A DNA stretch of 64,000 nucleotides from Clostridia bacterium. GTDB lineage: Bacteria; Bacillota; Clostridia; Oscillospirales; Acutalibacteraceae. Positions 59,569 to 64,000 of the stretch are shown here, one piece after another. The position numbers and the translations under genes are program-made. Location: contig JAGAKX010000011.1 of the NCBI GenBank assembly GCA_017625435.1, positions 124,001 to 188,000 of the forward strand, given 5' to 3'. Under the pieces are notes generated by a model, which saw only the letters and a program-made list of their open reading frames with translations, did no database searches and was not told where the DNA came from. The number at the start of each line of letters is the position of its first letter. The first letter of the stretch is position 1.

Positions 59569-61530
59569 ATGGAAAAATTCAAGTTAGTATCAGAATATAA
59601 GCCGATGGGTGACCAGCCTCAGGCTATAAAAGAGCTTGTTGACGGTATCAACAAGGGTTATAATGAGCAGACCCTTTTAGGTGTTACGGGCTCGGGCAAA
59701 ACCTTTACTATGGCGAATATTATTGCAGAGGTTAACCGTCCGACTCTGGTGCTTGCCCATAATAAGACCCTTGCTGCACAGCTGTGTACTGAATTCCGCG
59801 AATTTTTCCCCGAAAATGCAGTTGAATATTTCGTGTCCTACTATGACTACTATCAGCCTGAAGCCTATATTGCTTCGACCGATACCTATATTGAAAAGGA
59901 TTCTGCAATTAATGATGAGATTGACCGTCTGCGTCACTCCGCAACCTCAGCACTTTCAGAAAGAAGAGACGTAATAATAGTCGCAAGTGTGTCCTGTATA
60001 TATTCCCTCGGCAACCCTATTGACTACAAAAATATGGTTATTTCCCTTCGCACGGGTATGGAAAAAAACAGAGACGAGCTTCTGGAAAAGCTTGTTGATA
60101 TCCAGTATGAGAGAAACGATATTAATTTTGTCCGTAACAAGTTCCGTGTAAAGGGCGATGTTGTTGATATTTTTCCCGTATACAACAAGGAGAATGCAAT
60201 CCGTATTGAGTTTTTCGGGGATGAAATTGACAGAATCTGCGAAATAAATCCTCTTACGGGTGAAGTAAAAAATACCGTTTCCCACGTGGCAATTTACCCT
60301 GCATCCCATTACGTTGTATCTCCCGAAAAGATACAGAAGGCAGTAGACGAAATAATTGCAGAAATGGAAGAGAGGGAAGCCTGGTTCAAGGCTCACGGAA
60401 AGCTTATTGAGGCTCAGCGTATAAGAGAGCGTACCGAGTATGATATGGAAATGCTCCTTGAAACGGGCTTCTGTAAGGGAATTGAAAATTATTCCAGAAT
60501 TATGGCGGAAAGAGAGCCGGGCTCAGCACCATTTACACTACTCGACTTCTTTCCCGATGATTATATTCTTTTTGTTGACGAATCCCACGTAACGCTTCCT
60601 CAGGTAAGAGGAATGTTCGGCGGTGACAAGTCAAGAAAGGACAGCCTTATTGAATTCGGATTCCGCCTTCCCTCTGCTTACGATAACCGCCCTCTTACCT
60701 TTAATGAATTCTACGATAAAACAAGACAGAAAATATTTGTAAGTGCAACACCGGGAGACTATGAAAAGAGTCTTAGTGTGCACACGGCAGAACAGATTAT
60801 AAGACCCACGGGACTTCTTGATCCCGAAATTGAGGTTCGTCCCGTTGACGGACAGATTGACGACCTTATAGGTGAAATAAACGAAAGAACCGCCCGAAAG
60901 GAAAGAGTTCTTGTTACCACGCTTACAAAGGCAATGGCTGAAAGCCTTACTGATTATCTGACAGATTACGGTATAAAGGTCCGTTATATGCATTATGATG
61001 TTGATACTATGGAGCGAATGGAGATAATAAGAGACCTGCGTCTCGGTGAGTTTGACGTGCTTGTGGGAATTAACCTTCTCCGTGAAGGTCTTGACCTGCC
61101 CGAGGTTTCTCTCGTCGCCATTCTTGATGCTGATAAGGAAGGCTTTCTCCGTTCCGAAACATCGCTTATACAGACTGTGGGCAGAGCCGCACGAAATGCC
61201 GAAGGTAAGGTTATTATGTATGCTGACACCGTTACAAATTCTATGGAAAGAGCAATAACGGAGACCTACAGACGCCGTGAAAAGCAGCAGAAATATAATG
61301 CCGAAAACGGAATAACCCCCAAGACCATAGTCAAGGGCATAAGAGAAATAATTGAAATTTCCAATACCCACAAGGCAGCAAAGAAGGTGGGCGGTGTAAA
61401 GATGTCAAAGAAGGAAAGAGAGCTTCTTATCAATCAGCTTACCAAGGAAATGAAAGCTGCCGCAAAAATACTTGATTTCGAAAACGCAGCATATCTCAGA
61501 GATAAGATTAAAGCATTACAAGAAGGATAA
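59569..61530 (+). CDS. uvrB: Excinuclease ABC subunit B
   Basis: 653 residues. UvrB takes the damage site from UvrA and positions UvrC for incision. The P-loop [10 protein letters not shown] (about 38-47), the beta-hairpin [11 protein letters not shown] (about 92-102), helicase motif [10 protein letters not shown] and motif [11 protein letters not shown], plus the C-terminal UVR domain ([22 protein letters not shown]), are complete. The ATG at 59569 has ACGGAG before it. uvrA follows on the same strand after the hairpin array. Confidence 0.97.
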
Positions 61531-61854
61531 ATCATAATTCAGCAGTCAAAGACTGCTGAATTATGATAGTGATATCGACAACTTTGTTGTCGGTGATATC
61601 CGTCTGAGACGGGTGATATTCATTCCTTCGGAATGAGTGATAATTTGCCCTGGGGCAAATGTTTCGGAAGGGCTTCGCCCTTGAATTATATTAATAGAGC
61701 GAAGCGGAACAAGCCGTCAGGCTTCCTGAACTTTTGAGAAGCAAAAATATAACTCGGCAACGCCGAATAAACTCAGCGAAGCACAATATAACTCGCACCA
61801 TCGGTGCGAATATAACTATCATAATTTAGCAGTCAATGACTGCTAAATTATGAT
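61531..61854. repeat. Array of about 10 short hairpins bounded by two 37-bp palindromes
   Basis: Ends: ATCATAATTCAGCAGTC-AAA-complement (61531-61567) and ATCATAATTTAGCAGTC-AAT-complement (61818-61854), two perfect 17-bp stems differing at one stem position (C/T) and in the loop. Inside stand small perfect hairpins, mostly with 3-4 nt loops: CGACAAC (61576-61592), CCGTC (61600-61612), CATTCC (61621-61635), ATTTGCC (61643-61660), AAGGGC (61668-61682), AAGCC (61711-61724), TCGGC (61754-61766), TCGCACC (61793-61809). Two further units at about 61694-61710 and 61774-61785 look decayed. Spacers are GTGATAT-like in the left part and ATATAACTC-like in the right. No ORF, no transposase. Confidence 0.85.
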
Positions 61855-61867
61855 TTACGGAGGATTT

Positions 61868-64000
61868 ATGGCACAGAGAAAAATAAGAATTGTCGGTGCA
61901 AAGGAGCATAACTTAAAGGACGTTTCCCTTGAAATTCCCCGAGACAAGCTTGTTGTCTTTACGGGGCTTTCAGGCTCGGGAAAATCCACCCTTGCATTCG
62001 ATACCATATATGCCGAGGGACAGAGACGCTACGTTGAATCTCTGTCTTCCTATGCAAGACAGTTTTTAGGTCAGATGGAAAAGCCCAACGTAGAGCTTAT
62101 TGAGGGGCTTTCTCCCGCAATTTCCATTGACCAGAAAACTACATCAAAAAATCCCCGTTCAACCGTAGGCACGGTAACGGAGATATACGACTATTTAAGA
62201 CTTCTTTATGCAAGGGCAGGCATTCCCCATTGCCCCGTATGTCATAAGGAAATCCGTCCTCAGAGCGTGGACGAAATGACGGACAAGATTATGGCTTTCC
62301 CTGAGGGAACAAAGTTTATGATTATGTCACCTGTCGTAAGAGCCCGAAAGGGTGAACACGTAAAAATTCTTGAGGATGCCAAAAAGGCAGGCTTTGTAAG
62401 AGCACGTATTGACGGTGAAATGCGTGAGCTGTCTGAAGAAATAAAGCTCCAGAAAACCAATAAGCATACAATTGAAATTGTCGTTGACCGTCTTGTTATG
62501 AAGGACGGTATAGCCTCCCGTGTGTCCGATTCATTGGAAACAGCCCTGAAGCTCAGCGAGGGTATTGTACTTGTTTCTGTTGTGGGCGGCGAGGAAATGC
62601 TCTTTTCACAGCAGTTTTCCTGCCCTGATCATAACGTGGGAATCGGGGAGTTAAGCCCCCGTCTTTTCTCCTTCAATAATCCCTTCGGTGCCTGTCCTAA
62701 GTGTGCAGGTCTCGGAATATTCAAAAAGGTTGCTCCCGAGCTCATTATTCCCGATAAGAGGCTTTCAATAAACGGCGGTGCAATAAAGGGCTGCGGATGG
62801 ACTAATGAGAAATACGGCACAATTGCCCGTATGTATATGGAAGGTATTGCAAAAAAATACGGCTTTTCAATGGATGATCCCATAAAGGATATCCCCGAAA
62901 AGGCAGTAAATGCGATTCTTTACGGTACGGGGGAAGAAAAGCTGAAGCTGAAAAGAAGCTTTCACACAGGCTCTACGGAATATGAAGCTCCCTTTGAGGG
63001 TATTGTAAATAATCTTGAACGCCGTTACAGCGAGACAACAAGCGACTGGGCAAGATGGGAAATAGAGCTTTTTATGACGGACCACGAATGTCCCGGATGT
63101 AAGGGGGCAAGGCTTAAGGATGAGATTCTTGCCGTTACCGTTGGCGGAAAAAATATTGATGAATTTACGAGAATGTCGGTTTCCGATGAAATTGAATTCC
63201 TGAACGGCCTTGAGCTTACCGAACGTGAGCATTTTATTGCCGACGGCATTATTAAGGAAATCAGATCAAGACTTGAATTCCTCCAGAAGGTAGGCCTTGA
63301 TTATCTTACTCTTTCCCGTGCATCGGGTACGCTTTCGGGCGGTGAAAGTCAGCGAATCCGTCTTGCAACCCAGATAGGCTCAGCGTTAACGGGTGTACTT
63401 TATGTTCTTGATGAGCCGAGCATCGGTCTGCATCAGAGGGATAATGAAAAGCTTATAGAGACTCTCAAGAATCTCCGTGACCTCGGAAATACCCTTATTG
63501 TTGTCGAGCACGATGAGGACACAATGAAAAGTGCCGATTATATTGTTGATATCGGCCCCGGTGCCGGTATCCACGGCGGTGAAATTGTAGCCGCAGGAAC
63601 GCTTGAGGATATAAAAAAATGCCACCGTTCAATTACGGGTCAGTATCTTACGGGTGAAAAGAAAATCGAAATTCCCCGTGAGAGAAGAAAGGGTAACGGA
63701 AAATTCCTTAAAATATTCGGTGCAGGGCAGAATAATCTTAAGGATATTGACGTAACCTTTCCTCTCGGCAAATTTATTGCCGTTACGGGTGTTTCAGGCT
63801 CGGGAAAATCCTCGCTAATAAACGAAATTCTTTATAAGCACCTTGCAAACGAGCTGAACGGCGCAAAGAAGCTCCCCGGTAAAAACAAGGGCTTTCAGGG
63901 TACGGATAACCTCGATAAGGTAATTGACATCGACCAGTCACCCATAGGCAGAACGCCCCGTTCAAATCCCGCAACCTATACGGGTGCGTTTACTGACATA
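61868..64000 (+). CDS. uvrA: Excinuclease ABC subunit A, 3' truncated by window edge
   Basis: DNA-damage sensor ATPase of nucleotide excision repair. 711 codons visible of about 940. The first P-loop [12 protein letters not shown] and the zinc-type CPVC region (about 120), the signature [12 protein letters not shown], Walker [12 protein letters not shown], and the second P-loop [12 protein letters not shown] (near 640) are present. The window ends inside the second ABC unit. The ATG at 61868 has ACGGAGGATT just upstream, 14 bp after the hairpin array. It is the reading partner of uvrB. Confidence 0.97.

Follow-up and report, generated by a model that had tools for sequence, protein, structure and literature searches.

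A hairpin-array insert between uvrB and uvrA, related to Gut-1 RNA, is probably a mobile DNA repeat

Between the genes uvrB and uvrA of the window, i.e., the whole 64,000-nucleotide stretch of DNA that was analysed, a 324-bp insert (61531-61854) of short perfect hairpins set between two outer palindromes fills the gap from the stop codon of the first gene to the ribosome-binding site of the second. The question raised by this locus is what such an array could be: a structured RNA, a mobile piece of DNA, a by-product of replication, or a terminator. Its plan is regular, with a terminal palindrome, a half-array of linkers and hairpins, a core, an inverted half-array, and a second terminal palindrome (Table 1), the halves being head-to-head copies of one array type with the conserved core in the middle. 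Part of this had been seen in a first-pass annotation, to which the membership of the Gut-1 family, the head-to-head halves, and a strand asymmetry of the loops are now added; its overall dyad is borne out by a 72-nt inverted pair, 78% complementary, and its linkers recur as GTGATAT at 61569, 61593, and 61613 (GTGATA at 61637) on the left and as ATATAAC or ATAAACT on the right. The outer palindromes do differ, as it had reported, at a single stem position, where C-G in the left one is replaced by T-A in the right one, and in the loop (AAA versus AAT), and are otherwise identical.

The description of the element as made almost entirely of perfect stem-loops is correct for its greater part. Counting perfect stems of at least 5 pairs with loops of 3-4, hairpins make up 61% of the element, whereas 189 further stretches of the window, each also 324 bp long, average 4.8% and never exceed 19%; two hairpins of the right half (61732-61746 and 61774-61785) have decayed, the second of which includes GCGAAGC at 61776-61782. 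The whole element folds strongly as RNA (z = -9.3), and as DNA each half, on each strand, gives z = -5.4 to -6.9. The boundary of the insertion is uncertain by about 3 bp because TAA at 61528-61530 and TTA at 61855-61857 lengthen the outer dyad. A longer, mechanically called uvrA reading frame starts at ATG 61850, within the right palindrome. A CRISPR array had been discounted from the start, correctly, as the linkers are 7 bp long, the variable parts are self-complementary, and the pattern of constant repeats with unique spacers is absent.

Table 1. Parts of the insert and its flanking genes, in window coordinates.
Feature	Position	Strand	Remarks
uvrB, upstream flank	59569..61530	+	653-aa ORF; stop TAA 61528-61530 abuts element
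Entire inserted element	61531..61854	.	Site empty in 21/23 congeners; copies of 96%, 89%, and 80% identity in own genome
Left terminal palindrome P_L, ATCATAATTCAGCAGTC-AAA-GACTGCTGAATTATGAT	61531..61567	.	Dispersed P family
Gut-1 (RF01706) match, left half-array	61567..61648	+	46.4 bits, E 3e-8; gathering cut-off 50
Linker GTGATAT and hairpin 1, CGACAAC-TTT-GTTGTCG	61569..61592	+	Sequence
Linker GTGATAT and hairpin 2, CCGTC-TGA-GACGG	61593..61612	+	Sequence
Linker GTGATAT and hairpin 3, TCATTCC-TTC-GGAATGA	61613..61636	+	Sequence; - strand loop GAA
Linker GTGATA and hairpin 4, ATTTGCC-CTGG-GGCAAAT	61637..61660	+	Sequence; conserved last unit of the half-array
Core, from GTTTCGG to hairpin AAGCC-GTCA-GGCTT	61661..61724	+	Common to copies of several arm types
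Core hairpin AAGGGC-TTC-GCCCTT	61668-61682	+	Followed by motif AGAGCGAAGCGGAAC
Core minihairpin GCGAAGC	61699..61705	+	Loop rule in other copies
Core hairpin AAGCC-GTCA-GGCTT	61711-61724	+	After AGAGCGAAGCGGAAC
Right half-array, four hairpins	61725..61817	-	Linkers ATATAAC / ATAAACT / ATATAAC / ATATAACT
Hairpins of the right half-array	61732-61746 (decayed), 61754-61766, 61774-61785 (decayed), 61793-61809
Gut-1 (RF01706) match, right half-array	61742..61818	-	32.2 bits, E 1.3e-4; gathering cut-off 50
Right terminal palindrome P_R, ATCATAATTTAGCAGTC-AAT-GACTGCTAAATTATGAT	61818..61854	.	Inner stem is the lineage-constant one
uvrA, downstream flank	61868..64000	+	ATG 61868; GGAGG 61859-61863; runs past window edge

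Both half-arrays match the Rfam model of Gut-1 RNA (RF01706) significantly, though below the cut-off of 50 bits, which sister copies exceed with up to 70 bits in the same genome and 79-91 bits in relatives; judged from these matches, the element belongs to the family that has entered Rfam, through its half-array, under the name Gut-1 RNA. Gut-1 was described by Weinberg et al. 2010 (PMC2864571) as a certain structured noncoding RNA, found in human gut metagenomes only and belonging to unsequenced organisms, and our literature search found no other account of it. At E 1e-4, 42 of 59 relatives are positive with the model, and Gut-1 is a multicopy repeat in 57 of the 147 genomes of the host's order that are at least 90% complete, spanning 40 of 88 genera. 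A phylum-wide draw of 300 genomes returned three, among them the window's own and one more of the same order: the Gut-1-type pattern is nearly confined to one bacterial order. Among named assemblies, matches to the linker pattern come mostly from ruminant-gut Oscillospiraceae and Clostridia MAGs, and 90 of 118 have two or more perfect hairpin units. In viral contigs, linker-pattern scans gave two or more such units at 13 of 188 loci, with no sign of phages as the main carriers.

The strongest rival account takes the Rfam entry at its word, i.e., the element would hold a structured noncoding RNA that acts as a transcript, with arrays that are RNA genes or UTR elements and are multicopy by chance. 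The matches of both halves to a model that scores RNA structure, the scores of other copies above the gathering threshold, the rating given by Weinberg et al. 2010 (PMC2864571), and the strong RNA folding all speak for it, and yet we regard it as unlikely once the stems and loops are examined. These were read from 337 distinct linker-bounded units, 264 of them perfectly paired, and from an independent set of 218 further distinct perfect units from named MAG contigs; the counts and E-values depend on the linker set, with one genome per species and many MAGs, and the loop counts omit 56 of the 337 units as decayed or too short for a simple parser, which biases them toward perfect stems and toward no mismatch type. 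Selection for pairing in an RNA should leave many G-U pairs, both as steps between one Watson-Crick pair and another and as pairs that are simply tolerated. The hairpin units show few: in linker orientation, the internal single mismatches are 8 G-U, 18 A-C, and 18 others against about 2,800 Watson-Crick pairs, with no excess of wobble, whereas tRNA stems of the same loci have 7.6% G-U (84/1,102).

The loops follow a rule that is visible on one strand. On the strand reading ATATCAC, triloops are GNA in 116 of 168 units (69%), versus 1 of 168 (0.6%) on the other strand, and tetraloops are GNNA in 61 of 83, versus none; out of sample the figures are 53/108 versus 1/108 for GNA and 51/84 versus 0 for GNNA, all of these counts being non-independent because units share ancestry. 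The loop-closing pair is C-G in 247 of 264 units of the first set and 183 of 218 of the independent one. An excess of GNRA among the GNNA array loops of the first set (42/61) gives way to 21/51 out of sample, and the pooled 63/112 is close to the half expected with a free third position, so that array units have no clear GNRA preference. The core minihairpin of other copies, a GC-loop-GC, carries GNA (28/29) or GNNA (28/31), and there 23 of the 28 GNNA tetraloops are GNRA, mostly GTAA. The extra-stable class of DNA hairpins generalises to GNA and GNNA loops. The commonest unit is TGCTTCGCA, whose opposite strand reads TGCGAAGCA, i.e., d(GCGAAGC), and hairpins of this kind melt near 76 C with a stem of only 2 bp (PMC10527192). 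A comparison of the strands by DNA energies did not show the GNA strand to be more stable than its complement. As a pattern of sequence, which held out of sample, loops and stems together are those expected of ultra-stable DNA minihairpins, and the property that is maintained is most likely the folding of single-stranded DNA.

Two further points weigh on the transcript. Arrays begin near the 3' ends of genes, and also near 5' ends, as on the 5' side of tmRNA (L110/L165); moreover, the full element carries both orientations, and its transcript would therefore consist of one sense and one antisense array. Judged from sequence variation, the units display neither wobble-tolerant covariation nor RNA-type loops. 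Compensatory stem changes, which the first-pass annotation had expected if pairing is selected, are abundant, but they do not prove an RNA, because template switching during replication, which makes and mends hairpins (PMC8794818; PMC7202029), produces them as well (PMC8794818). The earlier proposal of a non-autonomous mobile element or a structured RNA is cut in two. The mobile half is supported, with other copies and empty sites, and the RNA half is disfavoured despite the Gut-1 match, given the scarcity of G-U wobble and loops of the DNA type (GNA/GNNA) in place of the RNA type (GNRA).

How the element came to its site can be read from relatives. The uvrB gene was located through its C-terminal part in 24 of 26 genomes, with usable downstream sequence in 23 congeners, and in 21 of these the junction lacks the element, its uvrB stop and a conserved UvrA motif lying 26-55 bp apart versus 367 bp in the window; to judge from this comparison, the element entered the junction recently and as one piece. 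The remaining two junctions (L131 and L132, from two other species) hold unrelated repeat-like inserts. Its own genome, studied as stretches around each copy, has about four near-full copies, including that of the window, and many partial ones; the nearest, at another locus, is 96% identical. L001 and L002 have almost the whole interior and the right palindrome in common, and differ in the inner stem of the left one (AGCAGTC versus AACGACC-type). Both the further copies and the empty sites for which the earlier annotation had called are therefore at hand.

The terminal palindrome forms a dispersed family of 10, 11, and 37 copies in G000, G015, and G006, where a reversed-pattern control gave 1, 0, and 0. 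It keeps ATCATAATT as its interior varies, the right-hand hairpin being of type AGCAGTC or GTCCCCGAC, and it also occurs alone (G015). In the sister species G006, at least eight palindrome-bounded elements of similar length, about 300 bp, with palindrome starts mostly 270-280 bp apart, have related interiors and occupy different intergenic sites; one end is nearly always TTTGTC-CCC-GACAAA and the opposite end is variable. The space between palindrome and core holds either hairpin arrays or quite different simple repeats of AATTCGGAATT- or AGATAAAAGATAATAG-type, as in L552-L554, L557, and L564, which have the usual ends and core, and for this reason palindromes and core can be considered a constant frame. 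Several near-identical copies thus lie at non-homologous sites, and empty sites are found both at uvrB-uvrA and at the end of a serine recombinase gene, filled in G000 and empty in G006. The flanks of 56 distinct terminal palindromes show no consistent target-site duplication, with TA/TA possible in some copies; many of these palindromes abut a stop codon, which TAAATCATAA often supplies. Other palindromes, GGGAGGGG-TCT-CCCCTCCC and GGGCGGGG-...-CCCCGCCC, recur beside elements in several genomes (at many loci, e.g., L162, L166, L168, and L169).

These copies also bear on a neutral origin, in which the array would have neither a selected function nor a dedicated enzyme: intrastrand template switching, with d(GNA) hairpins as its hot spots, would go on producing and perfecting hairpins in intergenic DNA, and ectopic gene conversion between linkers would multiply the copies. 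Such a process is known to create and mend hairpins (PMC8794818, PMC7202029), and it would account for perfect, wobble-free stems and for the replacement of stems as blocks between copies otherwise about 90-96% identical, e.g., TTTTGC..GCAAAA to TTTTACC..GGTAAAA in L003. We nevertheless consider it quite unlikely, since terminal palindromes, linkers, core, and a length that hardly varies form a conserved, bounded frame, insertions are clean and occur at sites without homology, and few carriers of the pattern lie outside one order.

If the element is mobile, then the machinery that moves it becomes the next issue, and a RAYT/REPIN-type element driven by an IS200/IS605-like Y1 transposase would suit its dispersed palindromes, inverted pairs, and single-stranded hairpin logic. 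This is a highly improbable option. No constant GTAG-type foot accompanies a constant palindrome, and stems almost free of G-T pairs are unlike those of REPs, where such pairs are common (PMC3733652). Y1_Tnp (PF01797) was absent from G000 (97.6% complete), G015, G019, G002, and G004, all of which carry copies, and present in two of seven genomes. For this host, such an origin is largely refuted, save for the chance that the 2-3% absent from the assembly contains the gene.

A sister subtype, with GTGAAAT linkers and a terminal hairpin GAAAAARCNACTT...TTTTTC, is found in several families of the order directly behind the CCA that ends tRNA and tmRNA genes, with examples in the same genome (L075, L089, L092, L095, L096, L100, L104, L105) and elsewhere (L060, L062, L063, L163, L174, L176, L177, L188, L195, L196, L203, L205, L209); where one genome has arrays behind different tRNAs, these do not differ over the length read (L103-L105). 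The subtype also follows GCACCA at the 3' ends of two large serine recombinase genes that are nearly identical (L091, L097), which, taken with the tRNA cases, suggests that it inserts immediately downstream of CCA. A 98% identical serine recombinase gene of G006 (L569) ends without the array. The recombinase was rejected as mobiliser, being missing from most carriers and having this orthologue without an array in G006. In the tRNA subtype (L089, L091, L062, L093, L163, and others), the 5' arm of the first stem plus linker (AAATTCGCC, AAATCCACCC, ATATCCGTTCC) has exact complements in the core (GGCGAATTT, GGGTGGATTT, GGAACGGATAT); arm and complement change together between copies, forming a third covarying segment and an alternative pairing. 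The array 5' of the tmRNA gene (L110, L165) is orthologous in G000 and G006, with the same terminal hairpin GAAAATTTGC and one stem altered on both sides. The idea that the insert is nothing more than an intrinsic terminator that was duplicated, or a simple repeat that attenuates transcription of the uvrBA operon, has the slightest chance of all, for although this tRNA-adjacent subtype has terminator-like terminal hairpins (GAAAAA...TTTTTC), the window's palindromes lack a GC-rich stem with a T-run, the remainder of the element is not terminator-like, and the empty sites in relatives together with the composition rule out a duplicated terminator.

The element is multicopy, has near-identical copies at unrelated loci and empty sites, obeys a loop rule, and has almost no wobble. 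We therefore favour, as the probable explanation of its sequence features, a non-autonomous dispersed mobile DNA repeat, mosaic and palindromic and REP/BIME- or MITE-like in scale, that would be kept as folded single-stranded DNA. More tentatively, we suggest that Gut-1 itself may not be an RNA: it could be the recognised portion of a class of folded single-stranded DNA elements, rows of d(C-GNA-G) and d(C-GNNA-G) hairpins joined by constant linkers. A dedicated enzyme acting on single-stranded DNA, other than an HUH Y1 transposase, would spread and maintain them, and would recognise the end hairpin specific to each lineage. In this scheme, a strand made single, as a lagging-strand template, by nicking or displacement, or in transfer, would fold into a row of extra-stable minihairpins separated by 7-nt linkers, and this folding would be the conserved property. 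A trans-acting enzyme, putatively not a RAYT/IS200 Y1 transposase, would recognise the lineage-constant end hairpin and/or the core as its likely sites, and would copy or insert the element, preferably at gene ends. Stems might then stay perfect, and change freely as paired blocks, because copies defective in folding would fail to spread, and/or because hairpin-templated, template-switch repair would rewrite one arm from the other. Against this reading, a search covering PF01797 and one serine recombinase found no autonomous partner, and young copies in G006 have stems that decay on one side in the usual manner.

If correct, this interpretation would change the classification of an Rfam family that is now taken for a certain noncoding RNA, and would mean that abundant compensatory stem changes can arise from processes at the DNA level. 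Near-absent wobble, along with GNA/GNNA versus GNRA loops, would offer covariance screens an inexpensive way of telling DNA-hairpin repeats apart from genuine RNAs, and the mobilising machinery of a repeat family widespread in gut Clostridia can now be sought.

Four known systems resemble this element in part. Small non-autonomous units with modular interiors, ends of inverted symmetry, and intergenic insertion are typical of MITEs and BOX-type repeats, and the element shares all of these traits; it differs in having complete palindromes as ends, with no consistent target duplication seen and no parent transposon found in the search for the two enzymes named above. With REP, BIME, and REPIN sequences mobilised by RAYT it has in common short intergenic palindromes, inverted pairs, linker mosaics, and high copy number, yet each REP family has stems of constant sequence and a GTAG foot, whereas here loops and linkers are constant, stems vary freely (337 distinct units), foot and constant palindrome are absent, and the host is without RAYT, in line with the earlier verdict of not being a simple REP. 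The d(GCGNAGC) minihairpins share the C-GNA-G loop rule and the core GCGAAGC, the same chemical motif, but their literature (PMC10527192) concerns oligonucleotide chemistry and no genomic family. Finally, Gut-1 RNA, described as a noncoding RNA of unsequenced gut organisms, has the linker GUGAAAU/GUGAUAU and three short variable hairpins, and its model matches both halves of the element; here, in contrast, Gut-1 is half of a dispersed inverted element of known genomes, with a DNA-like pattern of variation.
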